The position numbers were made by a program, and so were the translations under genes. Positions 22,774 to 61,860 of a DNA stretch of 64,000 bases are shown piece by piece. Origin of the DNA: Heloderma charlesbogerti (Eukaryota; Chordata; Lepidosauria; Squamata; Helodermatidae); NCBI GenBank assembly GCA_026122225.1, contig JANEZZ010001666.1, positions 1-64,000 on the forward strand, in the 5' to 3' direction. The first letter of the stretch is position 1. Each line of letters begins with the position of its first letter. Under the pieces are notes generated by a model. It searched no databases. It was not told where the DNA came from and saw only the letters and a program-made list of their open reading frames with translations.

Positions 22774-24117
22774 TAGGGATGGCAGAGGAATTCATCCAGG
22801 GAGTCAAGTCCACTGAGGTTTTGGCAGCTTGGCCCCCTGGACTCTGGCTCGCTTCTCCATGAGCTGGCCTGACATGACCTGTGTGAGTCAGCCAGCTCAT
22901 GGACTTCCGCTGCCAGCAAAACCCCTCATGCTCTCCATTGCCAACGCTGACACCGAGAAGGAGAGTGTGAGGGGTTGTGCATCATGGCATCGGCAGAGTG
23001 GGAGCCAGAAGGGGAGTACCATAGTGCTTCCCTCCTGGCTCCCACCCTGTTGCCATCACTGCCACCGCTAGGGGTGGGCGGATCACTTACCTGGTTCTGT
23101 TCCGGGGCATCTGCTGCACGGGGAAGGAGATCTGTCCCTCCCACCCAGAATCCTCCCTGGCTGGCTCTGCTCCACCACAAGGCCACGGAGCTGCCAGCCG
23201 GGCCTGTCCGCAGCTGGACTTCCGTCCGCTGCCGGCCTGTGGATGCAAATGGCGTCTGGCGTAGCGGACACTATTTGCATCCCTGCGTTAGCCGTGATAG
23301 GCTATGTAAATACTTACGTAGCCTATCATGGCTAAAGCAGGGACACAAATGGTGTAGTGGACGCCATTTGTGCCCCCGCTCTTTGCCATGATAGGCTATG
23401 TAAATACTTACATAGCCTATCACGGCTAAAGCAGGGACGGTCCTGCTTTTGCTGCACCACCACCTTCTCTGTTGTGCTATCTTCAGGAGACAACAGCCAT
23501 TTGCTCCCGCAGACGGAGCAGCGGACAGCTGCGGACAGACCAGCCCAGCCAATGACCAGGTAGGGTCCATCCCAGGGGGATTCCATGGGCTGGGCTGGGG
23601 TAGTCCATTCCACCACGGACTCCGGGGGGGGGGCAGATTCTAAAGAATCCGGCCTCAATGGAATCCGTGGCAGATTTCTCCACCATCCCTAGCCACTGCC
23701 GAGCAACCATCCCTCTCTCTGCAAGTCACCAGCAGAGAGAGAGGTGGTTGTTCGGCAGTGGTAGCAGGGTAGGAGCTCCCACCGTGTCACCACCACCAAG
23801 CAACCACCCCTGTCTTTGCTAGGCACCAGCCGGAATGCTATTTTGTTTTGTTTTGTTTTGTTTTGTGTGTGTGTGTAAATATGCACAAATTACCTCTGTA
23901 ATTTGCACAAATTAGACAAGAGAGTTTGCCTAATTTGCACAAATTACAGAGGTAATTTATGCACACAAACAAACAAACAAAAAAACTCAAGCAAGTTCCT
24001 GGGTTTCCAGGAAAATCCCCGGCTCGACTTGGCTCTCAAATGCAAGCCAAGCTGGGGGCAGCAGGGAAACCCAGCAAGCCCCAAAATGGCCAGATTTCTC
24101 TGCGACGACCAACCCTA
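22774..24117 (+). mobile_element. hAT-like element I, nested in H and interrupted by A
   Basis: The left end is TAGGGATGGCAGAGGAATTC. The right end ACGACCAACCCTA reads TAGGGTTGGTCG inward. The right half contains a strong hairpin, 23882-23964: GCACAAATTACCTCTGTAAT is answered by ATTACAGAGGTAATTTATGC. A (TTTTG)n tract precedes it. Element A sits inside at 23069-23691. I could not make a convincing 8-bp duplication at its ends. Confidence 0.6.
23069..23691 (-). mobile_element. palindromic-core hAT-like element, copy A
   Basis: The inward-reading ends are TAGGGGTGGGCGGATCACTT and TAGGGATGGTGGAGAAATCT. The flanks GCCACCGC and GCCACTGC match at 7 of 8, a hAT-type duplication. The core has two copies of the GTGATAGGCTA palindrome (23290-23333 and 23385-23427) separated by a second inverted repeat built on GGGACACAAATGG and CCATTTGTGCCCC. 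No transposase is present. Frames on both strands reflect the palindromes. Confidence 0.8.
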
Positions 24118-24639
24118 GAGTGGAAGATGTCATCATGACATCTTCCCCTGGGCTTCCACTGGCAGCCGCTTGCCACTGGACAGAAGATTGTGCAATGAAA
24201 GACAGTCACACGCACCCCTCAGCCACACTGTAACTAAGGTAAGTGCAAGAACCCTGCATCCCACCCACAATAATTTCACCAACGTTTTCTCCTCCTTTGA
24301 ATTTTTTTCAAAGGCAAGTTTTTTTTTTCTATCAAATTGGGATTAGTTGAAAAAAATGGAGAATGCAATTGAATCTCTCTTCAGACTTTCATACTGGATG
24401 TGCAAAGGTCATAACTGGAGCTGGAACATGCAGGATTGTCGGGAGCAGGGCTTGCAAGTGTGCCCCTCCATATTTTAAGCCCACACACGTTCACCTGAAC
24501 AGGGCTACTGTTAGCTTAGAAAGTAATTATTTCTATGCGCTTGGGCGGACTTCCTAGCTATGCAGAAGTACATAATTTGTAAATTAAAACAAAAGATTGT
24601 GTTGTTAAAGTTGTAATTAGTTTTTGGTGTTTCGACCCA

Positions 24640-25015
24640 GCAGAGCCAGTGTCAAGGGCAGGCATGGTTGGACACCTGCCAAGAGCCCGCATCCCAGCAG
24701 GGGCCCGCTGAAAAGAACTCCTTGGAGTTGCTCCTTGCCTTCACCATTGTAACCTGCTTGTTCACCTGCTTCTCACACTGGCTCAGTCAGTGGTGATGGT
24801 GAGGAGGAGGAGGAGGAGGAGATGCTGCTGCCTGCTTGCTTGCTCACTAGCTCTCTACCTGTCGAGCAAGAGAGTTGTACAAAGGATGAGAAAGAAAATG
24901 AGGAGCAATAGCAGCTGGTAACAAGGTTGGTGAGAAGGTAGATTCACCGAGTGAGGGGGCCCATGGAGGATGTGTCTTCCCTAAGGGCCCTCAAAAATCT
25001 GGAGCCAACACTGCA
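24640..25015 (+). mobile_element. MITE family R, copy 3 (most complete)
   Basis: Left end CAGAGCCAGTGTCAAGGGCA; right end TCTGGAGCCAACACTGC, a loose inverted match. Internal blocks GGCATGGTTGGACACCTGCC, GGAGTTGCTCCTTGCC and TAAGGGCCCTCAAAAATCTG match the other copies. A (GGA)n run lies at about 24802-24822. Confidence 0.65.
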
Positions 25016-25019
25016 ACCT

Positions 25020-25960
25020 AGTTATGTGCAATTAAGGTTGCGTATTAGAATCTGGACAAGTGCAATTAATGTCTATGCAAAAAGCAGGTTAGGTACAACT
25101 ATTAGTTGAATGTTTTAAGTAGTTAAAGGGGTTGTGTGTAAGCAAGGTTTTGATAAGGTTATGTGCATTTATTAATACTTGTGCTGCAAGTGGGTTATGT
25201 GCAATTAGCAGCAAAGGGGGCATGTGCAACTGAACTCTGATTTGATTGGGTTATATACAATTAGGGAGCAATCCTATGGCCGCTAGTCAGCAGCTAGAGA
25301 GCCATAGGGTATCTGGTTTTCTGGGAACTGACCTCAGAGCCCATGCTCTGAGGTTGGTTCCTGGAGAACTGGCCTTTCCCCCCTTCCACGCTGCCTCACA
25401 GGCAGTGCAGAACAGCCCTGCGCTCCAAAGAGGAGCACGGAGTGGCCAAAATGGGGTGTTCTGGGGGGCATTCCAAGGTGGGGAAAGCAGAAATGCCAGT
25501 ACGACACATCCTATGCATTGTCCAGCAGCCTTCTCCCCCGCTCCGCCTTCCCGCAGCTAGACAGCCCAAATTGGGGCAAATGCAGGGTGGCTGAAGTGTG
25601 GAGGGGACGATCCCCTCTGAACCCCTCCTGCCCTGCATTGGATAGGCGGTCACCTCTGGGTTCGGAGGTGGCCACCTATCCCCATAGGATTCCGCCCTTA
25701 CTGTATGTATTGTAACTAGTTTATGTGCAACTAAGGCTTGAGTAATAAACCACTTGTTAAGACACCCATCCTTGTTTAATCTACTAAGTTCCCGGTAACC
25801 TACTTTGAGTATTAATATATTGATTAGTAAATAAGCATTATGTGGTAAATGGGATATGTGTAATCAAGATTTATGCAATAATACTTTATGAACAATACAT
25901 TTTGTGCAATATATGGCCTATGTGCAATTAGGGAGTTAAATACAATGTCACATCAGAAGA
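25020..25960 (+). repeat. degenerate tandem array built on TTATGTGCAATTA
   Basis: Variants of TTATGTGCAATTA recur at about 25023, 25140, 25195, 25250, 25720, 25850 and 25915. They are spaced by roughly 50-70 bp of related AT-rich sequence with ACTAGTT, TTAAG and TAATAA motifs. The array is heavily decayed and is split by a MITE at 25264-25697. No coding content. Confidence 0.5.
25264..25697 (+). mobile_element. PIF/Harbinger-like MITE S, copy 1
   Basis: The ends are GGGAGCAATCCTATGG and, inward from the right, GGGCGGAATCCTATGG. Both sides are flanked by TTA (25261-25263 and 25698-25700). A 3-bp TTA duplication with G-rich termini is the PIF/Harbinger pattern. Internally GAACTGACCTCAGAGC and GCTCTGAGGTTGGTTC form a hairpin. 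Further copies are at 47013 and, partially, 46497. Confidence 0.7.
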
Positions 25961-25964
25961 CGTC

Positions 25965-26920
25965 TGTTTGTGCAATGGAACTTCCACTTGTTCACCTCTC
26001 CCCTGCATACCCTGTGCCCTTCAATTCTACTCCAGAGGGCCCTTCAATGGGGGGCTACAGGGGGAAGGGGAAATGCATTCCACCAATGGTTTCCATTCTG
26101 TTGGCGGATGGCCAGCATTGAATACAACCCAGGTTTTATTTGTTATATAAATTAAGAATGGATTGATTTGGAAAATATAACAGAGCTCTTTAATATCACA
26201 TGTATAATTATGTAGGTTAAAAATGGCTCAAATTCATGGTATCTTGGTTAGGATGGTTAGCAAGAGTAAAAATGAATATTTTCCTAAACATGTGTTTCTT
26301 TTTGTAATCACAAAAAATAAGTTATTGCTCAAATATTAGTTGTGTATCACATATCTAGAAAGCAGAAACTATTTACATAAAACCACTGTTATCAATACAT
26401 CTTAAATACTTGATGAAATCTGTCACAAAACATAGATCTGCAGAAACCTGATTATAATTAACAAGTACTTACAACATTCACTGTATCTAACACCAGAGCA
26501 ACTCAGTAATAGTAAAAAACAACAACAAAAAATGGTGGTCAGATCATCTAACAGACCTATAGACATACACATAGCCAGCTAGGCAAACTTTGAATTCACA
26601 AATCAGAGGTAAATTCAAGGTGAGATAAGTTCATATTTTTCCACCTTCAAGGTCACCAAAGGGGCATGCCCCTCTAGCCACACCTCTGCAGCAGCAACAG
26701 ACCACCTGGTGCTCTCCACAGTTTTTTTTTAATCATTCTCTTTGTAGCTTTATCAGTCATATTTTTATTTATGTAGCTTGTGCCTCAATAAAAATAGTTC
26801 ATCTGGGAATGTGTTCTTAAAGTTGCAGTTGCCTCAACAGAATATGGCTTACCTCACAATCACAGGTAGGAAACATGTGGGATCTGCAACTGTTGCATTG
26901 TGGAGTACTCTTTTTAATGG
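25965..26920. other. unassigned AT-rich sequence
   Basis: No gene or repeat recognised. Confidence 0.35.
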
Positions 26921-26927
26921 CTGACTG

Positions 26928-27309
26928 GGGTTTCTCCAGATGGGGCTTTTAGCCTGTGGTTAAGATTGGTTACTCATGGAAGTTTGTGGGTCCTTTACAT
27001 GACCTCATCAACCTCTAGCACCCCTTTCATAGTTTCCAACAATTTCTGTGGCTTAATTTGAAAAGGAAATAATGAGCTACTAAAAAGAAGCGGTTTTAAT
27101 TTCTCCATGTAAACTTTGTAAAGAGGAAGTGGTGCTATAACAACAGTGCCACCTAGTGGCTGTATAAGAAACCTATAGAACTCACAGATAAAGGGAAAAA
27201 TGGGGGGAGGGAAGCACATGTAAACGGGTGATCTTAATCCTGCAAAGAATTTGGAAGTAGAAGCCCCAGTAATATCACAGGATAAAAAGCTTCTGTGTGG
27301 AGAAGCCCT
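26928..27309 (-). mobile_element. MITE family O, copy 2
   Basis: Reverse-oriented copy of 4203-4612 (GTTTGTGGGTCCTTTACATG, TGCCACCTAGTGGCTGTATA). The ends, GTTTCTCCAGATGGGGCTTT and GCTTCTGTGTGGAGAAGCCC, are inverted repeats with TTTTATCCTG-like inner edges. Confidence 0.6.
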
Positions 27310-27319
27310 GGCTGAAGCC

Positions 27320-28425
27320 CTGCCCTCTTCCAGGATACTCTATTCCATCCCCCATCCACAGCAGCCAGCATTCCATGGCCACTGGGCATGGCCTTTTTGG
27401 ATGTTCCTCTTGAGGGTTTTTTTTTCTTCTAAAGATTTGTTTTTGGTACTCCTGCAAATCTTGGTGCTTTCCCAAGCCTGTTGATACCTCCCTCTTGTAC
27501 GTGGATGTTGCTGTTTTGGCTACATAAGGACCAGCATTTGAAGGATTGAGATCACTATTAGTATATATGGTATACCCAAATAAGAGTGCATCACTATGAA
27601 AAATACCCTGTTAGAATCCTCTTCATGTTTAGACAGAAAAAGGTCCTACAACTGCTAGCATTCCCCAGCCACATAGGTAGCTTTTCAGAAACATACATGT
27701 TTGGTAGAAATGGTTTATGCCAATGACTGCAGTGGTTTAAACATAACACATCTAGGAGCACTGAGGGAGATGTTAGTATATTCTTGGCTCATATGGGGCC
27801 ATAGAACATGCTTTACATTCTATTACAATTTTCCAGTTAGCTGGCTGCTTGAAAACACTTGGGTTCAGTGTGTGAGAAGCACAGTTTGCTGCTGCTGGGT
27901 TTTGGAGTACTGAGAGAATCACAACATACTGAGACCATTATGGGCAAACAGAGCAGAACCACCTATGTAACCTTTTAATAATTAAAATTTTCTGCTATTC
28001 TAAAAATCCTTCCAATCTGTACAGCAGGGTCAGAACCTTATTCATGTCTCACATGTTGAAATGGATCGGTAGTTGAAATGCCATTTGTTGAAAATCCTAA
28101 TTAAAGATATGAAAATGTCTTCCTCCCCCTGCATCCCCATGTTTAATGAAACTTCTATGTCTGAATGTTTACTAGATAATCATTTCCCCTCCCTGCTCTC
28201 AGCTGTTTCCCCGCTCTTTTCTCTTGGACCCCATTTCGGCCTTGGCTTGCTGCTTCCCTCTTATTCCTTCCCTTGTCTAGCAGTGTTGCCAAAGGTTGTA
28301 ATTCCTTGGCTCAAGATATGAACCTCCTCCGTGCTTGTGATGCTTGTCTCCAGTCCAAGCCATTATGACTCACAGAAATCTTCACTAGCTCAGAGAAGAA
28401 ACCCAAAATGGAAAAGACCTCTTCC
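27320..28425. other. mostly unassigned; half MITE at 27593-27680
   Basis: 27593-27680 (CATGTTTAGACAGAAAAAGG, CATTCCCCAGCCA) matches the left half of the 123-bp MITE at 3795. The remainder is not recognised. Confidence 0.4.
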
Positions 28426-28429
28426 TTCC

Positions 28430-28732
28430 TTCCCTCCCACCTCAGCTCACTCCCTCACAGGTGTCCATGTGTCCTACTTTACAGAGGACAGTCCTCTAGT
28501 TGAAGGGCTATCAGAGGACAATCCTCTATTTGAGAGCATTCTCTGTTTGAAGGTCTGTCCAGTTCACATCTGGTTTAAAGATAAAGGACCATGAGAAGGC
28601 ACAGCAGGGGCCTTGAAGATTCCCATCAGCAGTTACACCTGGAAATCAGAATGAGCAAGCACATGGGTTACCCGGTCACAGTCTTCCTCACTATGGTGAG
28701 ATGTCTTGTACTTCTATTTAAATTGTAGTAAT
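28430..28732 (+). repeat. repeat family Q, copy 2
   Basis: Colinear with 8995-9228. It contains a local duplication, AGAGGACAGTCCTCTA then AGAGGACAATCCTCTA, not present in the other copy. Confidence 0.5.
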
Positions 28733-28983
28733 TAGTGATGGGCAAACATACTCCAAGTGAATTCATTATTTACTTGGAAAGTAACAAATTCTGACAAGTT
28801 CTTTAATACAAGATCTCATTCCGTGTAGATGCGCTTTTGCAATATCAAAGTGCATCTTGTGAGCTGTAGTTTGCAATTGCATATTGCAGCATGATGTCAT
28901 GCATCACCAAATTATGTGCCCCCTTCTTGATTGGTTGTTTTTGAATGTCCTTCCTATATGATGATGTCATGTGATGTTTACTC
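28733..28983 (-). mobile_element. hAT-like element N, copy 1 (partial)
   Basis: The end TAGTGATGGGCAAACATACT matches in reverse complement the right end of the copy at 59949 (AATTCGCCCATTACTA). Shared internal blocks include a CATGATGTCATG motif, TGATTGGTTGTTT and GTGATGTTTACTCA. It stops abruptly at the CR1 at 28984. Confidence 0.55.
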
Positions 28984-29481
28984 ACTGACCACCAGTGCTT
29001 GGATACCTCCAGTGATGGAGAGCCCACCACCTCCCTAGGCGGCTGGTTCCATTGTCTGACTGCTCTGATAGTTAGGAAGTATTTCCTGAGGTTCAACCAA
29101 AATCTGCCTTTCTGTAACTTAAGCCTGTAATTGCATGTCCTACTGTCTTGGAGGATAGAGAACAGCTTGTGGCTGTGTGACAACCCTTTATGCACTTAAA
29201 AAGTGGTATCATCAGTGCTCAGCCTTCTCTTCTCAGGCTAAATGAGAGCCAGTGTGGTGTAGTGGCTAGAATGTTGGACTGGGAGTCGGGAGATCTGGGT
29301 TCGAGTCCCCACTCGGTCATGGAAGCTCACTGGGTGACTTTGGGCCAGTCACAGACTCTCAGCCCAACCCACCTCACAGGGTTGTTGTTGTGAGGATAAA
29401 ATGGAGGAGGAGGAGGAGGAGGATTACGTATGCCACCTTGGGTACCTTAAGGAGGAAAAAATCTCCTGGAGGGGTTGGGCA

Positions 29482-30387
29482 TTGGAGACACCGTATTGCA
29501 GTGGTTCCGGTCCTTCCTCTCTGGCAGGTACCAGAGGGTAGCACTGGGAGAGGAGATTTCGGGGTAACACAGGGTTCCATCCTCTCCCCGATGCTATTTA
29601 ACATCTATGTGAAGCCGCTGGGGGCTATCATCAGGAGGTTTGAGGTGCAGTGTCATCAATATGCGGATGACACGCAGCTCTACCTCTCGTTCAAATCTTC
29701 ACCAAGGTTGGCCGTAGAATCCCTGTCCAAATGTCTGGAGACAGTGAGTGGCTGGATGGGGAGGAATAAGCTGAAGCTGAACCCTGACAAGACCGAGGTA
29801 CTTTTGGTGGGAGACAAGAGGAGGCTGGGGGATGTTGACCTGGTGTTGAATGGGGTATGGCTACCTTTGAAAGACCAGGTCCGCAGCCTGGGGGTCATTT
29901 TGGACTCCCAGCTGTCCATGGAGGCTCAGGTGTCAGCTGTGAGCCGGACAGCGCTGTATCAACTCCATCTGATACGGCGGCTGCGCCCCTTCCTTCCCGA
30001 CCATCTGCTTTGTTTAGACTACTGTAATGCGCTCTACGTGGGGTTACCCTTGAAGATGTTTCGGAAGCTGCAGCTGGTACAGAACACAGTGGCTCGCCTG
30101 ATTAAAGGCAGCCGCCAGCAAGATCACATCACTCCAGTGCTGAAGGAGTTGCACTGGTTACCAGTTGTTTTCTGGGCCAAATTCAAGGTGTTGGTTTTGA
30201 CCTTTAAAACCCTATATGGTTCCGGCCCAGCCTATCTTAAGGAGTGCCTCCAGCAACACCAGACAGGCCGCTTAACAAGATCAGCCTCGGATAGCCTTCT
30301 CTCTGTCCCATCAGCCAGGACAGCTAGACTGGTGAGGATGAGGGAGAGGGCCTTTTCTGTGGTGGCCCCCACTCTGTGTGTGGGGTG
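29482..30387 (+). pseudogene. L2 reverse transcriptase fragment with YADD box
   Basis: The frame reads [17 protein letters not shown], then [13 protein letters not shown] (catalytic YADD at about 29659-29670), [65 protein letters not shown] and [14 protein letters not shown], up to the nested SINE. Compared with the L2 at 7493 it has lost roughly 13 residues just before LDYCN, an in-frame deletion. An upstream Met that extends the frame to 29390 lies in the SINE and is not a real start. The endonuclease is absent and the C-terminus is broken by the SINE, so the product is inactive. Confidence 0.85.
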
Positions 30388-30642
30388 TAGAGCCAGTGTG
30401 GTGTAGTGGCAAGAGTGTTGGACTGGGAGCTGAGAGATCCGGGTTCTAGTCCCCACTCGGCCATGGAAGCTCACTGGGTGACTTTGGGCCAGTCACAGAC
30501 TCTCAGCCCAACCCACCTCACAGGGTTGATGTTGTGAGGATAAAATGGAGAGGAGGTGGATGATGTAAGCCGCCTTGGGTTCCTTGCAAGAGGAAAAAAG
30601 GCGGGGTATAAATGCAATAAAATAAATAAATAAAAATAAATC
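30388..30642 (+). mobile_element. tRNA-derived SINE (copy 4) inside the L2
   Basis: Full head-to-tail copy: GAGCCAGTGTGGTGTAGTGG, GGGTTCTAGTCCCC, body, then AAAAAGGCGGGGTATAAATG and (AAAT)n. The L2 text on either side (ACTCTGTG before, TCTGTGGAATTCC after) shows a short target repeat of CTGTG. Confidence 0.9.
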
Positions 30643-35680: not shown

Positions 35681-36951
35681 GTTTTTTTCGACCATTCTCA
35701 TTCAATTAGACATTCGCGTGGGTTGCTTTCAGGGGTTCTTGTATTTACTTATGAGGTAGCTGAGGAGTCTGTGCAGCTCTCCTGTCTTTCATTGTAAAGT
35801 CATCTTTAGTGATGTACGAAAGTCACTTACCTGGTCCCGCAGCTTGCTTCGTGGTGGGGGGGAGGCGCTTCGGTTCTCCCCCCGAAGTTCAGGCCGGGGA
35901 GAAGCGCCCCGTCTCCCCGGCCGTGAAATAAAAAGTGAATTGAAAACAAAACAAAACAAAACACCCGTGATAGGCTACGTAACGATTAACGTAGCCTATT
36001 ACGGCTGACTTTGGAAATCTAGCCGTGATAGGCTACATTAATCATTACGTAGCCTATCACGGGTGTTTTTGTTTTGTTTTTACTTTATTTTGTAATGGCA
36101 GCGGCGGCAGATGGTCGGAAGACCGGCCACTGCCCCTGCCCCTGCCGAAACGCCGCCGAAACGCCGCTGGGACCCGCCACTGAGAGGGACATTTGCATGA
36201 TGTAAGTCCCATCCCGGGGGGGGGGGTGGCGGAGAATTTCACCATCAATTTCGGGGGGCCGAATGCGTTGGCATTTGGCCTCCCTGAGAGTCGTGGAGAA
36301 ATTCACGGCCATCCCTAGTCATCTCTCCAGCCACCTGTAGCCTCCTTGGCTTCCTGCACTTCAATTAAGGCCTCAGGGAAGACATCATGAGGTAATTCCT
36401 CCCATAGGGCTTTTTCAGATCAGAAAGTGCAGGCAGCCTGGGAGGCTGCAGAAAAACAGAGAGATGTGTAACACACAGCAGCCTTGGCTGTATTGCAGCG
36501 ATTGAAACACCACCAAAATAATTCAAAAGGAATGACAAAACTCCCCGAGAATGAGGCAGAAAAACTGAAACCTTTTTCATGTGGAAAGAAAACTTTCAGG
36601 AAATTTGAGGGCAATTTTGGCGCAGCACCAGCTCCACCTCTTCCCTGGAGCTTCAAACAGCACTGCACTGTGGAAAATGCAAAATGGGGATCAGGCTGCC
36701 AACAGAGTTGATGCTGTTGCCGCTTGCAGTAGCAATGCAAAAAACCAGAAACACCTGGGGGGGGGGGGAGGAAAGAAGCTGTGCTCCAAGCCCTGCCACT
36801 GGTGAGTCCTTCGGTGAGTCCTTCCTGTGAGAATCTGTTGGAGAGTTTCTCTTCCCTTTGCAGAAATTCAGTGAAATTGTCCCCCCTACAAATTGCCCTT
36901 CTGCCCATAAATATTATGAAGAATTTCAAGAGGCCAGTTATGCACAGCTCT
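35681..36951 (+). mobile_element. hAT-like element H, copy 3, interrupted by B
   Basis: Colinear with 18709-19391 from TTTTTTCGACCATTCTCATT onward; the first 20 or so bases are missing. The right end is ATGCACAGCTCTAA. Palindromic element B is inserted at 35808, in a stretch that reads straight through in the 18709 copy. Confidence 0.7.
35808..36317 (-). mobile_element. palindromic-core hAT-like element, copy B
   Basis: The ends are TAGTGATGTACGAAAGTCAC and, inward from the right, TAGGGATGGCCGTGAATTTC. GTCATCTT precedes and GTCATCTC follows the element. The core has two module palindromes (35963-36006 and 36021-36065). Outside them, AACAAAACACCCGTG and CACGGGTGTTTTTG make a larger nested palindrome. 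The centre of each module differs from the other copies (AACGATTAAC, ATTAATCATTA). Confidence 0.8.
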
Positions 36952-38559: not shown

Positions 38560-39779
38560 TAAGGATGCTGGAGAAATCTGCTGTGGACTCAAATGAGGCC
38601 GTATCCCAAAGAATCCATGCTCTGGAGTCCATAGTGGACCAGCTGCACTTACCTCTGGAGGAATTCCCACAGGATGGCTCTCCAGCTTCCTAAAAAATGC
38701 GATATGCTAATGGTGGCCGCCATTAGCTTATCGCAGGAAAGTTACAGCTGTAAATGGCATATTGCACACCATTTGCAGCCGTAAAGTACTTACTTTTACC
38801 TAAATGCAGCACTGAACAGCTGCAAATCACATCAAATATGCCATTTATGGCTGTCATTTTCCTGTGATAGGCTAATAATGGCAGCCGCCATTTGTATTGT
38901 GCTTTTTGGAAAACCAGGGAGCTGCTCCACCACAAACTCTGGGGATGCGGAAGGGCTCCAGAGGACACCGAGGGGCCCCAAGCGGCCCAAATTGCCCCAC
39001 AGCAGACCCCTCCTAGGGATGTCAGAGTATTCTGCGACGGATCTCGGTGAGGCCGAATGCCAGTGCATTCGGCCCCCCGAAATCCATCGTGGAAAGAAGC
39101 CTCCGCTCTACCCCAACCCACGAAAGGTGCACGGGACGAAATCCCCGCTGCCCCAACCCACAAAAGGCATGCAAAACCGAGCACTTACCTGCTCCCGTCC
39201 GCACTGCTTTGCGAATGGCGGCCGTCCTGCGGCCGCCATTCGCTTCGTCTTCATAGCCGTGTTAGGCTATGTAAATACTTATGTAGCCTATCATGGCTAA
39301 CACAGGGACACCATTTGCATCCCTGCAGAGGCCGTGATAGGCTACATAAGTATTTACGTAGCCTATCACGGCAGGGGGGAAAAAAACCCAGCGTACGTAA
39401 ATGGTGGCAAAATTCCACCCCGCCGTGATAGGCTACGTAAATATTTATGTAGCCTATCATGGCTCAATACAGGGATGCAAATGGCAGCGGCTACGACAGC
39501 TGCCATTTGCGTCCCTGCAGGGCTGCTCAGCGGCCGGATGTCTGGCTACGGGCGGCTGAAGCCGGCTGGCAGCTCTGCAGCTTGGCCGTGGAGCGGAGCC
39601 GGCCGGGCAGGATTCTGGGGGGGGGGACTGGATCGCCTCCCCCCCCGTCGAGGATTCCGGGGGGAGGGACGGAGTGCCTCCCCCCCACTGTGGATTGCCC
39701 GGCGTGGAGCCTGGTAGGTGTTTCGTACATCCCTAACCCCCCCCCCCAGGCTGCACAGTGGGGAGTTCATACATCCCTA
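38560..39779 (+). mobile_element. hAT-like element J, interrupted by C
   Basis: The ends are TAAGGATGCTGGAGAAATCT and TTCATACATCCCTA. The flanks ACGACAGC and ATGACAGC match at 7 of 8. The interior has weaker, older inverted motifs (ATGCTAATGGTGGCCGCCAT, GATAGGCTAATAATGGCAGC). Element C lies inside at 39014-39735. Excluding C, J is about 500 bp. Confidence 0.7.
39014..39735 (+). mobile_element. palindromic-core hAT-like element, copy C
   Basis: The ends are TAGGGATGTCAGAGTATTCT and TTTCGTACATCCCTA, flanked by ACCCCTCC and ACCCCCCC (7 of 8). Three module palindromes lie at 39255-39298, 39331-39372 and 39422-39463. The spacers contain AAATGGCAGCGGCTACGACA followed by GCTGCCATTTGCG, the second inverted motif. 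The right part is GC-rich with repeated GGATTCCGGGGGG-type blocks. Frames up to about 127 codons on both strands follow the palindromes and are not genes. Confidence 0.8.
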
Positions 39780-40904: not shown

Positions 40905-41712
40905 TAGGGATGTACGAATTGTGTACCTTCCATGCCGCTTGACTTCTGCAGTTTACGGCTAGGGCTCCGTTCCACCGTTCACAAGCCCCCGGAATTTTCT
41001 TTTTTTTCCGCTCGGAAAATTACGTAGATAAATCTGTACTGACAACCATAATTCCAGTGCCCAGCCATCTCCGTAAGTCTGCATAACTTCCCTAAGAATC
41101 ATTATTTTTTGTAAATATTTATGTATTTTTTTTTAATTGAAATCCTCTGTCTCCATTTACTTTCAGCCAAAACACTTCCTCTTCCTAGGGGCTTCCCAAA
41201 AGAAGGCTGTCTTAAGTGTGCCTGAGTGATAAACTATTTGTTTAAAGCAACGCTGTTTTAAAGAAAGAAAAAACCTTTCAAAATGACCATGCTGCTCCCG
41301 GACCGGCATGGTCATTTTAAAAGTTTTTTTCTTTCTTTAAAACAGCGTTGCTTTAAACAAATAGTTTATCGCTCAGGTACACCTAAGACAGCCTTCTTTT
41401 GGGAAGCCCCTAGGAAGAGGAAGTGTTTTGGCTGCAAGTAAACAGAGATGGAGGATTTCAATTTAAAAAGAACACCCACAAACAAGGCAGTGAGCACAGT
41501 TCATTTTTTTTTAAAAAAGTATGTATTTATTATCAGAATATACTACACTGCGTTTTTATTTACGAAAATTTCGCAACTCTTTGCGGAAAAAAAGCCACAT
41601 GACTGCTGGCTCCGCAGGACCTTGTGGTGCCATTCCGCAGAGGATTCCGTGGCACAGACTGAAGGGAATTCGATCCCATTTCAGTCCGTGGTGGAATTCT
41701 CTGACATCCCTA
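40905..41712 (-). mobile_element. hAT-like element L with ~160-bp palindrome core
   Basis: The ends are TAGGGATGTACGAATTGTGT and, inward from the right, TAGGGATGTCAGAGAATTCC. The 8-bp flanks are identical: GCTGAAGA (40897-40904 and 41713-41720). The termini are those of the GTGATAGGCTA family, but the core is different: a left arm (41131-41292) and a right arm (41306-41467) complementary over about 160 bp with few mismatches and a loop of about 13 bp. No transposase. The arms are similar enough to suggest recent formation or continued correction. Confidence 0.85.
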
Positions 41713-49203: not shown

Positions 49204-50400
49204 AGGGTTGTACAAGCATTTTGTTGCAGTTTGCAAATCACTAAAAAAATGCCTCATTTGCAACCCTGAACATGTACACCACCAACAGGAACGCATGTTC
49301 TCCGAAAACGTTCACACGCTTTAAAAACTTTGCACTGTCACACTTCATTCAGTGGGGGAAAAGTGTGCACTTTAGAAAAATGCACACTTTCCCCATTTGA
49401 AATGCTCACTTTTCCTGGTTGAACAAACTGAAAAAAAGATGTCACAAACTAGGGATGGCAGAGAATTCCGCCACGGATCTCGGTGAGGCCGAATGCCAGT
49501 GCATTCAGCCCCCTAAACTCTGTGGCAGAACGGCCTGCTCCCTCCCGCCCCCCCGCGGATCTCCCCCGGGACAAGACTTACCTGGGGTGGATCTTCCGGG
49601 CGGCGGCGGCTCCGGCGGTGGCTTCGGCGGCAGCTGCTGCAGGGGCTGGTCTTCTGACCGGCTGCCGCTGCCACCATTTCCAGTGTTAAAAAAAAAGAAA
49701 AAGACGTGATAGGTTACGTAAAGATTTACGTAGCCTATCATGGCTAGGTTAAAAAACACACACGACGTGATAGGCTACGTAAATCTTTACGTAGCCTATC
49801 ACGTCTGACTTAAAAACAACAACAACAATGCGTGTATGTAAATGGCGGCGGCTATGGCCGCCGCCATTTGTGTTCCTTATTTTGGCCCATCTTAGTCTAC
49901 GTAAATATTTACATAGACTAAGACAGGCCAAAATACGGAACGCAAGTGGCGGTGGCCGTAGCTGCCGCCATTTGCTTACATGTGTTTTGTTTTTAAGTCA
50001 GATGTGATAGGCTACATAAAGATTTACGTAGCCTATCACAGCTGACTACAGGGACGCAAATGGCGGTGGCTACGGCCGCCGCCATTTGCGTCCCTGCTAG
50101 CCAGTGTCCGGATGTCCAGCTGCTGGCGGAGCCAGTTGGCGGCTCTGCGGAATCCCCACGGAGTGGAGCCGGCTGGCCAGGATTCCGGGGGGGAGGCACT
50201 TCTCGCCTCCACCCTCCGGCGAGGATTCCAGGGGGGGAACGGAGCGCCTCCCCCTCCCCAGCGGAACCCGGCGGAGCCAGGTAAGCCAATTTCGTACATC
50301 CCTATCGCAAACAAGAACAGGAGAGAACCAAATTGAGCTTTGAAGTGAAGTTCGGAGAAAATTTGTGAGCATAAAACCTTCCTGGTTCTCTCAGCACTAA
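49204..50400. mobile_element. decayed element interrupted by D
   Basis: Starts TAGGGTTGTACAAGCATTTT and contains AAAGTGTGCACTTTAGAAAA and related inverted blocks like those at 33740 and 44704. It continues after D (AACAGGAGAGAACCAAATTG). The right end is uncertain. Confidence 0.35.
49450..50304 (+). mobile_element. palindromic-core hAT-like element, copy D (largest)
   Basis: The ends are TAGGGATGGCAGAGAATTCC and TTTCGTACATCCCTA, flanked by TCACAAAC and TCGCAAAC (7 of 8). Four module palindromes lie at 49703-49746, 49764-49805, 49877-49935 and 50001-50043. Between them, AAATGGCGGCGGCTATGGCC with GCCGCCATTTGTG, and a second AAATGGCGGTGGCTACGGCC pair, form the alternate palindrome. The third module is a variant: both arms have CTTAGTCTACGTA-type sequence in place of GTGATAGGCTACGTA. 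Outer sequence is GC-rich. Frames of up to 161 codons here are not genes. Confidence 0.85.
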
Positions 50401-55444: not shown

Positions 55445-56100
55445 TCAAAAGGCATTTACTATGCTTAGAAAAATCTCAAGTAACAATAGCTTTTTCCATC
55501 TTTGTCTCTGTTCCTTCTGCTTTGCTTTCCCATATACCCGCTCACCGTTCATCTTTTCCTTTAAATCCCTTTTTAGGACCCATTGCCTCACCAAGGCCTT
55601 TCCTGTACCACTCCTGTGACAGCTTACCAGTTCCTCCACAACTACCTAACTGTCTCCTGTCCCTCAATCTTTCACCTATCCTTTATTCCTATCCTAATTG
55701 TCTGTAGACTGTATATTCGTAAGTGGCCATGTTTCTCTGTATAGTCCCTAGCTAAACAATGGCCTTAAATAAATGTTAAATAAGACAAGGACTAGTAGTA
55801 GCTAGCGATCCTACCAAATCCCGTAATTAGTCAGCTCATTGACTGAAAGCTGTGTGTTCATAATGCCCACCTGTGTAACAAGCCTGGAGGTCTATTTAAT
55901 GAACTTCACTATGGTTTGTTATTCATTCCGGAACTTGGCTATGAGTTTTTGGCACATGCAAAGTTGCATCTAGACACTGCCATTTCTGTTCATGTGGAGA
56001 GTTGATTGGTCTAATCCTTTCCCCCCAAATATAAAGACATATTATATAAAGATGTCTCTTTCCCTGACAGTGCCAACTCCATCCCTGAGAGCAGGGGCTC
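55445..56100. other. unassigned non-coding sequence
   Basis: Pyrimidine-rich around 55500-55680. Nothing recognised. Confidence 0.35.
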
Positions 56101-56298
56101 TCATATCTCTGCACAGAAATACAGGAGGATGAGCTTGGTAGCCCCCTCGAGAACAACTGGGTTAAAATAAACGGAGCAAAGAATAAAAGGAACATGGTGG
56201 TCAGAGTCTACTACCAGCCACCCAATGAAGGAGACGACTAGGATTAAACTTTTGCAAAGCAAATAGCCAATGTTTCAAGGAAGCATGATGTAGTCATA

Positions 56299-56781
56299 AT
56301 GAGGGACTTCAATTTCCCCGATATTTGTTGGGAGACAAATTCTGCAAAACAGGGCCCCTCCAAGAGATTCCTGACTTGTGTTGCAGGTAACTTCCTCCTA
56401 CAGAAAGTAGAGGAAGGAACTAGAGGATCGTCTATCCTTGACTTGATCCTAACCAAGAGAGATGACATAGTGGATAAAGTAGCAGTTACAGGAACTCTGG
56501 GGGAAAGCGGCCATGTTGTGCTTGCATTCTTGGTTCTAAAGGAAGCAAAAGCTGAGTGTAGCCAAATGCTTACCCTGTATTTTAGGAAAGTCAATTTTAA
56601 TAAACTCAGAACAATGATAAGTAAGGTCCCATGGCAAGCGACTCTAATGAGAAAAGGAGTCCAAGATGGGTGGGCATTTTTAAAAAAGGAAATTCTCAAG
56701 GCACAATTACACACAATTCCAACAAGAATAAAAAGGTGGAAGACAACAGGAGAAGCCAATATGGCTTCACAAAAAGCTTAG
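56299..56781 (+). pseudogene. CR1 ORF2 endonuclease fragment
   Basis: The frame starts MRDFNFPDICWE, where the right-hand copy has MGDFNFPDICWE, so the GDFN motif of the APE-type endonuclease is altered (G to R). The later motif reads GESGHVV where the right-hand copy has GESDHVV; the Asp next to the catalytic His is replaced by Gly. Both changes predict an inactive nuclease. The upstream ITETWW part is missing. Confidence 0.75.
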
Positions 56782-57516
56782 AGATGACCTGAAAACAAAA
56801 AAGGACACATATAGGAAGTGGAAGGAAGGGCAAGCTACAAAGGAAGGGTACAGGCAGGTAGCACAGAATTGCAGGGATGGCATCAGGAAGACTAAAGCTG
56901 AGAATGAGCTGAGGTTAGCAAGGGATGCTAAAAGCAAGAAAAAGTCTTTCTTTAGCAATGTGCATAGTAAAAGACAAAGGAAAGAAATGGTGGTTCAGCT
57001 ATTAAATAAGGATGGCAAAATGATAATGGATGACAAGGAAAAGACAGAAGGGCTCCATTCCTACTTTGGCTGAGTCTTCTCCTGAAAGTGGCTCTATGAG
57101 CCCTCTGGCAAAGGTGAAGTACAGGCTGAAGGGGCAAGATGGCAGCTTGAGATCAATAGGCACATGGTCAAGGAACACCTAATTCTTTTGAATGAGTTCA
57201 AATCTCCAGGGCCAGATGAACTGCATCCTAGAGTAATAAAGGAACTGGCAGAAGAACCTTCAGAACCACTGTTTATTATCTTGAGAAATCATGGACGACG
57301 GGAGGAGGGCTAATGCTGTCCCTATCTTCAAAGAGGGTTCTAAAGGAAGCAAAAGCTGAGTGCTAAAAGCAAGCTTTCTTCAGCTATATTAAATATGGAT
57401 GGCAAAATGAAATCAGATGACAAGGAAAAGGCAGAAGTGCTCAGTTCCTACTTTGGCTCAGTCTTCTCCTGAAAGAGGGTCCATGGCAAAGGCGAAGAAC
57501 AGACTGAAGGGCAGGA

Positions 57517-58647
57517 TTGCAGCTTGAGATTGATAGGCATATGGTCAAGGAACACCTAATTATTTTGAATGAGTTCAGATCTCCAGGGCCAGATGAACTG
57601 CATCCTAGAGTAGTAATGGAACTGGCAGAAGAGCTCTCAGAACCACTGTCTATTCTCTTTGAGAAATTATGGAGGACGGGTGAAGTGCCAGATGATTGGA
57701 GGAGGTCTAATCTTGTCCCTAGCTTCCAAAAGGGCAAAAAAGGGGAACCTGGGAACTACAGACCAGGCAGTCTGACATCAATCCCTGGGAAAATTCTGGA
57801 GCAGATGATAAAGCAATCCATCTGTAAGCACCTTGAAAACAATGCAGTGATTACTCAAAGCCAACATGGATTTGTCAAGAACAAATCCTGCCAGATGAAT
57901 CTGATCTCATTTTTTTGATCAGGTCACCTCCCTTGTGGACTGTGGGAATGCTGTGGACAGAATATACCTCGACTTCAGCAAAGCTTTCGACAAAGTGCCC
58001 CATGATATCCTGATGAGCAAACGAGCTCAAAGTGGGCTAGATGAGACAACTATCAGGGAACCCACAGTTGGCTACAGAATCGGACTCAAAGAGTGCTTAT
58101 CAATGGGATACCCTCAAACTGGGGAGAGGTAACGAGCATGGTACCTCAGGGCTCAGTCCTGGCCCCAGTGCTCTTCAACATTTTTATTAATGACTTGGAG
58201 GAGGAGGTACAGGGAATGCTGATCACATTTGCAGATGACATAAAATTGGGCGGGATAGCTAATACCCTGGAAGACAGAAACAAAATTCAAGATGGTCTTG
58301 ATAGGATGGAGTGCTGGGCAGAAAACAACAGAATGACATTTAATAGGGATAAATGCCAAGTTCTGCACCTAGGAAAAAGAAACCAAATGCACAGTTACAA
58401 GATGGGCAATACGTGGCTCAACAATACTGCAAGTGAGAAGAATCTTGGAATTGTTGTCGATCACAAGCTGAATATGAGCCAACAATGTGATGTGGCTGCA
58501 AAAAAGGCCAATGCTCTTTTGGACTTCATTCATAGAAGTATAGCTTCCAAATCCTGTGACGTTCTAGTTCCCCTCTATTCAGCACTGGTTAGGCCTCATC
58601 TGGAGTACTATGTCCAGTTCTGGGCACCAGACAAACTGGAGAGTTAG
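57517..58647 (+). pseudogene. CR1 ORF2 reverse transcriptase, frameshifted
   Basis: Three overlapping frames make one RT. 57517-57918 holds SPGPDELHPRVV, WRTGEVPDDWRRSN and SQHGFVKNKSC. 57935-58132 holds IYLDFSKAFDKVPHDIL (motif A). 58093-58647 holds PQGSVLAPVLFNIFINDLEE and FADDIKLGG (catalytic FADD near 58229). The first break is a run of seven T at 57909-57915 where the right-hand copy has six. The second lies near 58085. Downstream, after a stop at 58648, conserved ILARFWLNI-type C-terminal text continues to about 59010. Not functional. Confidence 0.8.
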
Positions 58648-59099
58648 CAGAGGAGAGCAACAAAGATGATCTGGAGACTGGCAACAAAGCCTTATGAGGA
58701 GAGACAGAAAGAACTGGGTATGTTTAGCCTTTAGGTGAGAAAACTGAGGGGAGATATGATAGCACTCTTCAAGTACTTGAAAGGTTGTCACAAAGAGGAA
58801 GGCCAGCATCTCTTCTCGATCATCCCAGGGTGGACATGGAATAATGGGCTCAAGTTACAGCAAGCCAGATTCTGGCTGAACATCAGAAGAAACCTCCCAA
58901 CTGTTAGAGCAATACGACAATGGGACCAATTACCTACAGAGGTGGTGGGCTGTCCCACACTGGAGGCATCCAAGATGAGGTTGGACAGCCATTTGTCAGG
59001 GATTCTCTGACTTGGATTCCTGCATTGAGCAGGGGGTTGGACTTGATGGTCTTGTAGGCCCCTTCCAACCCTACTATTCTATGATCCTATGATTCTATA

Positions 59100-59600
59100 T
59101 TTGCACAGAGGTGGTGATGGTGGCAGTGGTGGTGACAGGGAGGGTGGGAGGGCAGTGCCATGGCTCCCTGAAAAGGTGGAATTGGGGCAGCTGGTTGATG
59201 TCGGACCAGAGTCCAGAGGGCCGAGCAGACGAAACCTCATTGAGCTCCATCCCCAACCAGATTGCTCCAATATCTCTATTCCAAACCAATCAATGAGAAA
59301 AAATTGAGATTTGAACTCCTTCTACAAACCAATCATGTTTGAAGAAACAGGCACATAGGTTGCTAGCCACCCTCTTGTTCAATTTTTCTTTCTCACTCAT
59401 GGCTTGGTCTCTTATTAGCTCAATCAATGCCATCTCTCTCATTATCTCAGATTGAATCAGTCATACAGGACATTTTCCTGTTTGGTAAGGAAAAATTTAC
59501 TTTAGTGGGTGCTAGTTTGAGAGGGATACTGCAAAGGGAATCCAAGAAGGAGGAGGTCTTTAGTGGAGGGCACAACTTTGGGCAGCTGGCTGACATGGAG
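59100..59600. other. unassigned non-coding sequence
   Basis: Small overlapping frames on both strands at 59080-59310 have no recognisable domain. Confidence 0.3.
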
Positions 59601-59604
59601 GAGA

Positions 59605-59949
59605 GCATGGATTAAGTAGATGGAGAAGATAGCTTGTTCTTTACTTGGAGAGTAATTTCTGGAACACAATACATTCTATTGCTCATGGTGAGTAAACACA
59701 GGCAGGCCATGTGGAAACAACCAATCAGGAAGGCGAACACAATGTAGTGACACATGATGTCATGACATATTACATGGTTCAAAACTACATCTCCCAAGAT
59801 GCACTTTGATAATGTGCATGCATAAAAACTCATATATACTGAACGATATCTTGAACTAATGGTGAACTCTCATCCGAGATTAGACCGATGAAATTTGTCA
59901 CTTTCCAAGGAAATAAAAAATTCAATTGGGGTAAATTCGCCCATTACTA
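59605..59949 (+). mobile_element. hAT-like element N, copy 2
   Basis: The right end AATTCGCCCATTACTA matches the inward end at 28733. Shared blocks: GTGAGTAAACACA, AAACAACCAATCAGGAAGG, CATGATGTCATG and CTTTCCAAGGAAATAA. The left boundary is approximate. A (CAG)n run follows at 59950-59975. Confidence 0.5.
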
Positions 59950-60173
59950 GCAGCAGCAGCAGCAGAAGCAGCAGCTTGAATGGATATTTGCAGTGTTGAC
60001 CCCTCCAGATGCCATAGGAGGAGCCATCTCTATGGCCTGGGGGGCAAAAGTGTTGACCTGTGGGAAATATGTAACAGTAACAACATGTAAGGCCTAGGGA
60101 GTGGACTCTCCCGCCGACAACCCTTCAGCAATCACCTCTGCCTTAAAAAACAAAACATTATTTTATGAAGATT

Positions 60174-60262
60174 TAGGCTGAAATCCTAAGCACTCTTCTT
60201 AGGGAGCCAGCCCATTGAGCTCAGTAGGACTTAATTCTGAGTAAACATATTTAAACTGCATG
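60174..60262 (+). repeat. CAATCCTAT-family unit
   Basis: GCTGAAATCCTAAGCACT, CATTGAGCTCAGTAGGACTT and TTCTGAGTAAAC. Confidence 0.45.
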
Positions 60263-60528
60263 CCCCCGAATTGCTTCTTTTCTTATTCCTTCTTATCTCC
60301 CCCCCTCCCCTTGCATTAGGCTGTAGTAGGCCTGGAGACCAAGACTCTATTGTTGTTTTTAATCTTTGTAGTACACCTAGAAAAATTTAGGGTCTGGATG
60401 AGGATGATAATTACAGTTACAACAGAGCATACTGAACACAATCAGTTTCTTGTCACTGAAGCTCCAGGCTCCCTCCTTCACAGATGAAGCAGAATGTTTT
60501 TTCTCTTAAATATAAAGACTTCTAGAAT

Positions 60529-60579
60529 TTCTTCTTCCTCTTCCTCTTCCTCTTCCTCTCCTCCTCCTCCTCCTCCTCC
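60529..60579. repeat. (TTCCTC)n/(CTC)n simple repeat
   Basis: Hexamer units passing into trinucleotide units. Confidence 0.9.
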
Positions 60580-60867
60580 AATATTAGAGGGATTATACCT
60601 CTAATATTGTGCATATTTAGCTTTCCCAGCTCCAAACTGCGCATATTTGAAGATGCACATTTTTTTAACTTCCTGTTTTACACAGGAATCAAAGGCGCGA
60701 AAATGGCGGTGCTTACCGCATGAGTTTACGGTGAGTACAAGGGAGCACTAGCAGGCACAAGCAGGGGGCAAACAAGGACAGCGTCTCGGTGGGCACAGTT
60801 TGGGGGTCACAGGCAGGGGTTGCTTGATGAATTCCCGAACCCCGAACTGTGCTCGCGACATCCCTAA
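60580..60867 (-). mobile_element. hAT-like element T, right end recognised
   Basis: It ends TGTGCTCGCGACATCCCTA, which reads TAGGGATGTCGCGAG inward. Near the left edge a hairpin (CAATATTAGAGG and CCTCTAATATTG) surrounds GATTATA. The left terminus is uncertain. Confidence 0.4.
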
Positions 60868-60869
60868 TT

Positions 60870-61395
60870 GGGACAGTGTCTTTTGCAGCACCTCTTCCAG
60901 CTCCTTTTTCCTATATCTTTGTACCTCCAAGTCGTTTGTTATTTGTATTTGATTAGATTCTATCTCTCCTTTCCATACCTTTTCAAACTAACATAGCTTT
61001 TCCTTGCAAATTTCTGTCATGCTCCCCCTCCCCCACCATTCCTGTGTTTGTTTGTTTATCTCGATTTTGGACTCCGGAAAAGGCTACATTTGTTGTGTAA
61101 TGTCAACCCCTACTTCTGCTTTCTCAGTTCTATTTTCTTGTCGTTTTTGTCAGTCAATTGTGTCTCTGTTAGATTTTTACAAATACAGTCTTATTTAGAA
61201 TTTTAAAAACAGACATTGACTTCTGGGCATGTTCCCCTCACCCCCAACTTTTAAGTCACATTCAGGAGTTCAGTTTTTTCTTTCTTTCTAAATCCTTAAA
61301 GAAAGACATATTATAGCAGCCTATGTGTGTAGTGTTTGTTCCCCCACCCCCATGCTGAAGTGAACCGTCTTGTGTCTTCTCTGTGTTGATCCTCC
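60870..61395. other. unassigned non-coding sequence
   Basis: Nothing recognised. Confidence 0.35.
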
Positions 61396-61401
61396 CAAAA
61401 C

Positions 61402-61860
61402 TAGGGATGTCAGAGAATTTCGCCACGAATCTCAGGGAGGCCAAATGCCAGCGCATTCGGCCCCCTGAAATCAGTGGCGAAACGGTCTGCCCCCCCACCC
61501 CCCCGGGACGGGACTTACCTTGGGCGAATCTTCCTGGCAGCGGCGGCCATTTGCATATGCGCATTTTTTGTTTGTTTTTTACTCAGCCGTGATAGGCTAC
61601 GTAAACATTTACGTAGCCTATCACGGCTGACTGCAGGGACACAAACGGCGGCGGCTATGGCCGCCGCCATTTGCGGAGCCCGCCGGCCAGGATTTGGGGC
61701 GGGAGGGACAGAGCGCCTCCCCCCCCGGCCAGAATTTCGGAGGGGAGGGGCAGAGTGCCTCCCCCCTGGCCAGAATTTCGGGGGGAGGGACGGAGCGCCT
61801 CCCCCCCACCTCGAATAACATTTCGTTAAAAGGTAAGTGACTTTACATCGTACATCCCTA
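61402..61860 (+). mobile_element. palindromic-core hAT-like element, copy E
   Basis: The ends are TAGGGATGTCAGAGAATTTC and ATCGTACATCCCTA. The flanks are identical 8-mers, CCCAAAAC (61394-61401 and 61861-61868). It has a single module palindrome (61585-61627), then an alternate palindrome with AAACGGCGGCGGCTATGGCC and GCCGCCATTTGCG. Beyond it is a small tandem of GGGGGAGGGACGGAGCGCCT-like units. At 459 bp it is the shortest complete member and the clearest reference for the family. Confidence 0.9.

Follow-up and report, generated by a model that had tools for sequence, protein, structure and literature searches.

The five elements A to E in the window (the whole stretch of 64,000 nucleotides analysed here, from the squamate Heloderma charlesbogerti) carry the same short palindrome in numbers that vary from one to four, which raises the question of what kind of family they belong to and how the variation came about. 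They are very probably copies of one very large non-autonomous family of hAT type, built on a nested palindrome of alternating alpha and beta units with matching arms, and shortened by deletion in some copies. Mobilization by a transposase acting in trans, old duplications and re-copying between arms would complete this picture.

Elements in the window

Elements A to E were confirmed as real, and make up only a minute fraction of a very large family (Table 1). The sequence-only reading had proposed a hAT-like non-coding family with common ends and a reiterated palindrome, present as several modules per element, and this was supported. The recount of modules agreed (two in A, two in B, three in C, four in D and one in E), and the shared TAGGGATG termini were recovered, with variants at the beginning of A (TAGGGGTGG), B (TAGTGATGT) and D (TAGGGATGG). 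The 8-bp target duplications already listed for E (8/8) and for A, C and D (7/8) were found again, together with one missing until now for B (7/8). Limits needed small corrections, as B starts at 35807 and not at 35808, and the best end of C is 39735. In D, the third module belongs to a divergent sister type (TAGTCTACGTA). A scan of the window against Rfam gave no match at the gathering threshold.

Table 1. Positions of the elements and palindromes in the window
Feature	Length	Positions	Strand	Internal features	Target duplication
Element A	623 bp	23069..23691	-	alpha-module 28-nt cores 23298-23325, 23392-23419	7/8, GCCACCGC/GCCACTGC
Element B	511 bp	35807..36317	-	alpha modules 35971-35998, 36029-36056	7/8, GTCATCTT/GTCATCTC
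Element C	722 bp	39014..39735	+	alpha modules 39263-39290, 39338-39365, 39429-39456	7/8, ACCCCTCC/ACCCCCCC
Sister element W5	808 bp	40905..41712	-	other palindromic core 41123-41475	perfect, GCTGAAGA
Element D	855 bp	49450..50304	+	alpha P modules 49710-49737, 49771-49798, 50008-50035; R-type 49893-49920	7/8, TCACAAAC/TCGCAAAC
Palindrome within D		49833..49980	.	centre is the R module; two 74-nt arms, 85% complementary, spacer 0	
Element E	459 bp	61402..61860	+	single alpha module 61593-61620	perfect, CCCAAAAC

Ends, target duplications and empty sites

Searching 25 sources for pairs of ends flanked by a duplication of at least 7/8 letters returned 22 pairs (two of them overlapping other pairs), of which nine had a perfect duplication and 15 contained modules, while four scrambled-end controls gave 0, 0, 1 and 0 pairs. 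When up to two mismatches were admitted (at least 6/8), 23 module elements displayed a target duplication, perfect in 13 of them, and no clear consensus for target-site preference emerged among these 23 sites. The duplication was shifted by one base in L016a and L025, and none was found for L016b and L028a, in which both ends were present. Empty sites were obtained in four cases: the 932-bp insert of L041 was missing in L039, and three inserts of the C1159 stretch were missing in C2113. The elements are thus discrete insertions.

Modules did not lie mostly outside elements with TAGGGATG ends, the outcome that the sequence-only reading had named as speaking against it. In 20 stretches chosen in advance there were 13 module clusters, of which ten had both ends and three had one end; chance alone yields one end-like 8-mer at a fraction of about 0.25 of random positions. 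In the reverse direction, 15 exact 26-nt right ends were located in the initial 3.3 Mb of contig 1, and ten of them had an exact half-module no more than 1 kb inward (11/15 with one place added from a second pattern search); alpha modules were also present at the remaining four, where the exact patterns had missed them. As a rule, the two ends of a copy had only the eight letters TAGGGATG in common. Full-length copies measured 800-970 bp, and lengths below 600 bp, usual for MITEs (PMC3573991), occurred only in deleted copies such as E and B.

Assignment to the hAT superfamily

The first eight letters of the ends are identical to those of the 11-letter terminal inverted repeat (TIR) of maize Ac/Ds (C/TAGGGATGAAA; PMC3260210), so that 8/11 letters agree and the difference is confined to the last three; hAT TIRs have been given as 15 bp elsewhere (PMC11008031). 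The eight letters common to the two ends of a copy fall short of both lengths. Candidate sources of transposase were sought with the hAT transposase domain PF05699, for which there were 871 candidates and all 150 of the matches scored exceeded the cut-off; genes of this kind are therefore abundant in the genome. One lineage of hAT transposases was read at five loci, and at all five the 12-nt end CGTACATCCCTA, with at most one mismatch, lay 179-313 nt downstream of the open frame. Around these transposase genes, homology extends beyond the end-like 12-mer, and the five loci, of which two were read out to about 12 kb, yielded no left end for the gene unit; no autonomous copy is therefore claimed. 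A full-length hAT with the same ends, called for earlier as a check on the family, was not found at the eight matches inspected among the 150 scored, none of which combined a transposase with the two ends. Three further PF05699 matches encoded proteins 22-23% like that of L039 and displayed no pair of ends with a target duplication. One of them (L049) is ZBED1, and the other two were taken for host genes. A tree of ZBED1 placed the host in Squamata but no more finely, raw identities to birds and a marsupial being of similar height (91-92%), and a 16S primer pattern gave no match.

The lack, in the loci examined, of a copy combining a transposase with the two ends would also fit membership of a different superfamily generating 8-bp duplications, with ends that resemble those of hAT by coincidence. 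This is very improbable given the letters shared with Ac/Ds, the 8-bp duplications themselves and the occurrence of CGTACATCCCTA, within one mismatch, at all five loci read of the transposase lineage.

Palindrome architecture

Longer copies elsewhere in the genome contained as many as six modules, arranged in mirror order, and a second type of palindrome was located between the modules, inside the window as well. Taken as a whole, a long copy forms a single extended palindrome, composed of two classes of short palindromes that alternate with mirror symmetry: alpha palindromes, of types P, R and T around TACGTA, and beta palindromes, centred on CAAATGGCGG or CAAATAGCG. In a non-random set of 30 stretches, a self-complementary span of more than 250 bp was observed in 27, and an arm identity of about 87-93% was reached in 20. 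The palindrome was mostly central in the copies, with the exception of L028a, which was self-complementary at 75% across its entire length of 881 bp. In animal genomes, long palindromes that are nearly perfect are usually considered unstable, and this squamate carries very many of them. The single-module element E had a predicted single-strand DNA fold of -135.1 kcal/mol, against -81.2 kcal/mol (sd 5.1) in 100 shuffles.

Origin of the variation in module number

Varying module counts had been read as a palindrome multiplying inside the elements, a claim that was not supported as stated. In eight six-module copies, the nearest relative of each module was the module at the same position in another copy (48/48, the mirror partner being left out of the comparison). 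Among ten shorter copies, five or more have the appearance of a longer copy that underwent an internal deletion, as they align with it minus one block. Among elements of the window, B aligns as an L008-like copy minus L008 letters 372-832, E as an L028c-like copy minus L028c letters 147-593, and the three modules of C match modules 0, 1 and 3 of the four present in L030. Because of this positional identity and of the block deletions, modules do not appear to multiply generally inside elements.

Gain of modules within individual elements as the source of the differing counts is accordingly an improbable explanation, although duplication has taken place at some time. L005a carries a clear tandem duplication, the only one seen, with units spaced by 94 bp and 93% similarity between the module windows, and in X4 modules 1 and 2 are mutually closest. 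Types P, R and T are distant paralogues, with cores 79% alike, so that module multiplication probably dates to the early history of the family.

Symmetry between arms

Within a copy, the two arms correspond in sequence, while that sequence differs between subfamilies. Co-variation between arms was observed at 135 of 144 positions, against 70.6 (sd 8.1) after permutation, the observed 135 being reached in none of 20,000 permutations, and 13 core columns had changed in parallel in both arms. Such matching despite subfamily differences is unusual. In 11 of 17 copies, which were not oriented by their ends in this comparison and for which later arm analyses refine the result, an arm was more similar to the closest other copy than to its partner within the copy. 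Compared arm by arm, L041i and X3 likewise displayed fewer differences from each other than the two arms within each copy. Both results count against copying after insertion, so that arm likeness is shown at the level of the founder only.

Two explanations of this symmetry were weighed. Selection for pairing, by which copies forming good hairpins are transposed or tolerated better with no copying between arms, could account for the one-sided intermediate states present in some of the parallel columns (e.g., 59, 86, 137 and 243). It could also account for the sister element W5, which shares the two kinds of end of the module elements and is built on a long palindrome with a different sequence (core self-complementary at 322/353), no alpha module or half-module being found in it. 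Several parallel columns nevertheless lacked an intermediate, and column 262 even had three states. Moreover, L028d displayed a flipped centre, swapped asymmetries and a conversion-like tract, in which arm II carries the state of arm I in four adjacent columns; these features point to exchange between arms, in this sole copy among six examined. Selection by itself is therefore regarded as rather unlikely.

A self-renewing palindrome is tentatively put forward instead, with clearly less than even confidence. Arms of a founder would be equalised by copying from one to the other before each burst, in a hairpin or cruciform or during repair after excision, with an occasional flip of the centre. 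The occurrence of at least two different palindromic cores (that of W5 and the module array) between the same kinds of end suggests that the ends or the transposase may favour palindromic cargo.

The history of the family is inferred to have run as follows. Alpha-beta units would stem from old duplications, and an inverted duplication would have created the long palindrome, whose copies would be moved by a hAT transposase acting in trans. From time to time, one founder arm would template the other, through mismatch repair of a hairpin or cruciform or through break repair, making the arms alike again and possibly flipping the centre, and bursts of copying would spread each version. If arm-to-arm copying is real, about a hundred thousand dispersed copies record its natural history. 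The joint change of the two arms between subfamilies provides a natural experiment on the maintenance of symmetry in long palindromes, and the family allows direct tests of arm copying versus selection, of centre flipping and of block loss from palindromes.

Comparison with known systems

No described family with this layout was found in the open-licence literature searched, and crocodilian Chompy MITEs were dropped as a possible identity, as the literature naming them was of no help and the ZBED1 tree placed the host among squamates. Angel, found inside the fish hAT transposon Tol2, is itself a palindromic non-autonomous family. Like the present elements, it is an inverted-repeat element tied to a hAT transposon with 8-bp duplications (PMC8151067), but it is described with one inverted repeat, and an alternating array in mirror order is unmentioned in the available part of that source, the two systems being compared by description only. 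Ac/Ds shares, besides the first TIR letters, the 8-bp target duplications and short non-coding copies, some of them formed by deletion (PMC3260210). It differs by far fewer copies (331 Ds1 and 39 Ds2) and by having no nested palindrome array, as far as the available part of PMC3260210, in which palindromes are unmentioned, describes it.

Galileo and Foldback-like elements of Drosophila have inverted repeats that are long, vary in length and are repetitive internally, and a step copying one inverted repeat into the place of the other has been proposed for Galileo (PMC3573991). Galileo is, however, a member of the P superfamily with long repeats extending to the termini, whereas the ends of the present family share only about eight letters and the palindrome is mostly central. 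The Drosophila hAT MITE Mar resembles the present family in its non-coding copies, whose origin has been ascribed to loss of internal sequence from an element with a transposase, but the available part of its description mentions no palindrome, hairpin or secondary structure (PMC3517528).

Copy number

In the 2.30-Gb genome, the 15-nt half-module had 224,958 exact matches (3 for the reversed control) and the 32-nt module 65,076 (0 for the reversed control), from which the family is roughly estimated at 100,000-150,000 elements. The sources examined contained 130 modules, against none after mononucleotide shuffling (one shuffle per source). Complete copies accounted for 4.2% of a 197.5-kb sample, which makes the family relevant to the annotation of this genome.

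Insertion and abundance of the elements

The five copies (A to E) that the sequence-only reading had reported in the window were present as described, with target duplications of 8/8 letters in E and 7/8 in A, B, C and D. Module-bearing elements with ends and a target duplication numbered 23 in a list admitting at most two mismatches (13 perfect, 8 at 7/8 and 2 at 6/8). Across 25 sources, real ends gave 22 pairs with a duplication of at least 7/8, 15 of them with modules, and scrambled-end controls gave 0, 0, 1 and 0. Empty sites were also found: the 932-bp element that interrupts the transposase frame at locus L041 (duplication GCTGAGAC) was absent from the related locus L039, and three inserts of stretch C1159 (964, 559 and 948 bp, perfect duplications) were absent at matching places of stretch C2113. 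The elements are insertions. Of the five hAT transposase genes read, two had a module element with a perfect duplication within the coding sequence (Table).

In the genome of 2,302,168,690 bases, the exact 15-nt half-module had 112,660 forward and 112,298 reverse matches (reversed-pattern control 3), the exact 32-nt module 65,076 (control 0) and the exact 26-nt right end 10,156 + 10,189 (control 0). A fixed sample of 20 ten-kb stretches, with positions set before inspection (197.5 kb without N), held 13 module-bearing elements, a count that leaves out four lone loosest-threshold matches (L011, L013, L016:7933 and L017), and 6 exact modules vs 5.6 predicted by genome-wide density. Rough estimates of element number were about 141,000 (65,076 scaled by 13/6) and about 152,000 (13 per 197.5 kb extrapolated), both from a clumped sample with its elements in 5/20 stretches, six in one, and contigs not drawn by length, and about 106,000 (20,345 exact ends scaled by 26/5, the exact end occurring in 5 of a non-random set of 26 oriented elements). 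Both ends were present in 10/13 sample elements and one end in 3/13, the chance of an end-like 8-mer at a random place being about 0.26 (left) and 0.25 (right). The ten complete elements totalled 8,325 bp (4.2% of the sample); six belonged to the 23 with target duplications, the duplication was displaced by one base in L016a and L025, and none was seen in L016b and L028a.

Contig 1 had 15 exact right ends in its first 3.3 Mb; an exact half-module lay within 1 kb inward in 10 (11 with one place from the 32-nt module search) and none within 1 kb on the outer side, against a random-place chance of 0.016. The remaining four had alpha modules missed by exact patterns, three of them with perfect duplications.

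Architecture of the nested palindrome

Long copies formed a single palindrome composed of short palindromes. The alpha palindromes, or modules, were of types P (GTGATAGGCTACGTA-N6-complement), R (TAGTCTACGTA) and T (TAGCCTACGTA), and alternated with beta palindromes centred on CAAATGGCGG or CAAATAGCG; the order was P P beta R beta R beta P P in six-module copies and P R T R in a second copy type. Best self-complementary alignments in 30 stretches spanned 65-881 bp at 74-93% identity, exceeding 250 bp in 27 (values without shuffled control). Folded as single-strand DNA, a long L028 stretch reached -421.7 kcal/mol vs -156.3 (sd 4.7, 20 shuffles) and copy E -135.1 vs -81.2 (sd 5.1, 100 shuffles). 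Inside beta palindromes, AAATGGCGGC or its complement is similar to a YY1 binding motif. An L028 element had end I (the left terminus) at both termini, all 881 bp self-complementary (75%) and no visible target duplication, and may have arisen when an entire element was duplicated in inverted orientation.

Loss and gain of modules

Eight six-module copies, picked for six modules and including three closely related ones, were compared in 60-nt module windows. Likeness was 0.935 between mirror positions within one copy, 0.872 for the same position class across copies and 0.668 for outer vs inner P within one copy. Once the mirror partner was set aside, all 48/48 modules were closest to the same position class of another copy. 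When ten shorter copies were aligned to eleven longer ones, one internal block was absent in five (Table), several looser pieces were obtained for A, C, D and L006, and Y1 aligned as a single piece. In P-only copies, modules of C corresponded to modules 0, 1 and 3 of L030. L005a, another P-only copy, had a module duplicated in tandem (94-bp spacing, windows 93% alike). Loss is therefore common and clear gain was seen once, which does not support, as a general account, the multiplication inside elements proposed earlier. The module array itself must have arisen through older duplications.

Table. Coordinates of elements, missing blocks and other features
Feature	Coordinates	Description	Basis
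Copy B	35807 of window	start	
Copy C	39735 of window	best end	
E	147-593 of L028c	block missing	alignment
B	372-832 of L008	block missing	alignment
L024	499-757 of L041i	block missing	alignment
X2	330-670 of L016b	block missing	alignment
L020b	471-753 of L016b	block missing	alignment
L041 insert	3170-4101 of L041	element in transposase gene	
L043 insert	653-1211 of L043	element in transposase gene	
L028 long stretch	7564-8495 of L028	folded stretch	
L028 element	584-1464 of L028	end I at both termini	
Beta palindrome	61660-61674 of window	example of a beta palindrome with YY1-like motif	
W5	40905-41712 of window	sister element	
First candidate	10070-10951 of window	hAT-like	
Second candidate	11485-12153 of window	hAT-like	
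Open frame	58045-58647 of window	LINE-type	
Open frame	62204-63157 of window	LINE-type	
Open frame	29270-30406 of window	LINE-type	

Likeness of the two arms

Seventeen copies entered the arm comparison, 16 with both R modules, and arms were re-dealt among copies as permutation. Arms agreed at 135/144 for nine letters outside R (70.6 permuted, sd 8.1), at 94/96 for six central R letters (78.5 permuted) and at 231/256 for 16 inner letters (178.6 permuted), levels reached in 0, 0 and 2 of 20,000 permutations, which kinship among copies keeps from being strict probabilities. Left arms occurred in 14 distinct versions. Across the palindrome core of six oriented copies, 13 columns held at least two letters that were each shared by the two arms of at least one copy, 16 held an arm difference common to at least two copies (two also among the 13) and 28 one private single-arm change; differences amounted to 86/1273 between arms within a copy, 540/6384 for the same arm between copies and 589/6368 for the opposite arm.

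For 11/17 copies in an unoriented comparison, the arm-by-arm difference from some other copy was smaller than the difference between the copy's own arms. Like arms of copies L041i and X3 differed at 14/259 and 9/260, vs 28/252 and 32/256 within copies, over whole arm stretches that include non-palindromic outer parts. Both results count against copying after insertion, and arm likeness therefore belongs to the subfamily founders. Relative to these two close relatives, copy L028d had asymmetric columns 109, 227 and 240 and the central loop swapped with respect to the ends, the arm I state in arm II at columns 188, 193, 195 and 196, and column 186 unswapped. Copying between the arms in patches, together with inversion, explains this most simply. 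Arm symmetry could alternatively come from selection for pairing.

Transposase genes and mobilisation

A search with the PF05699 profile gave 871 candidates, of which 150 were scored, all above the cut-off and eight with an 879-residue open frame. The L039 protein matched PF05699 at 1.3e-16, and its best four named relatives among 7,991 candidates scored were squamate proteins (36-42% identity); the nearest named relatives of the lineage carried annotated BED, KRAB or SCAN domains. The end II (right terminus) sequence CGTACATCCCTA, with at most one mismatch, lay 179-313 nt past the open frame in 5/5 lineage loci read, which are relatives and not five independent cases; homology among the loci ran past this point, and a left end could not be located for the gene unit. 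The lineage (L039-L047) is multi-copy and lies within long stretches of homology in which element ends could not be recognised. An autonomous source among these genes is a lead, not a result. By one gene, ZBED1, the host grouped with a gecko, three snakes and one unlabelled sequence (support 100/99).

Of 26 oriented copies, 22 had AGGTAAG 24-30 nt from end II and 20 had the complementary sequence 92-170 nt inward of end I (both counts without control). Read outward at both ends, it has the form of the splice-donor consensus, and such sites could splice flanking transcripts; they may simply be subterminal transposase-binding repeats.

Element ends TAGGGATG were identical to the initial eight letters of the Ac/Ds TIR, given in an excerpt of PMC3260210 as C/TAGGGATGAAA with 8-bp duplications. 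The family is real, very abundant, non-coding and hAT-type, and its nested palindrome is unusual, subject to comparison with Dfam and Repbase. A hAT transposase would cut and paste the element in trans via its ends and subterminal sequence; a strand could fold back on itself during replication or repair, and mismatch repair or template switching might then transfer the sequence of one arm to its partner, invert the centre or remove blocks. A related arm-copying step was proposed for Galileo (excerpt of PMC3573991). Taken as a whole, a trans-mobilised hAT-type family with founder arms made alike is very probably the best explanation. That the palindrome renews itself, founder arms being made alike by arm-to-arm copying before each burst, is a tentative and rather doubtful addition. 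Both readings are held slightly less firmly because of the 11/17 copies and the L041i and X3 differences.

Other elements in the window

W5 was complete (808 bp), with both kinds of end seen in the module elements and a perfect 8-bp duplication; it had no alpha module, and its palindromic core of 353 bp (91% self-complementary) was a different one. These ends carry more than one palindrome. Two hAT-like candidates, with ends TAGGGCTGTGC (11-letter inverted) and TAGAGATGT respectively, each had a 7/8 duplication and no half-modules. Among three LINE-type open frames, two matched RVT_1 and one Exo_endo_phos.
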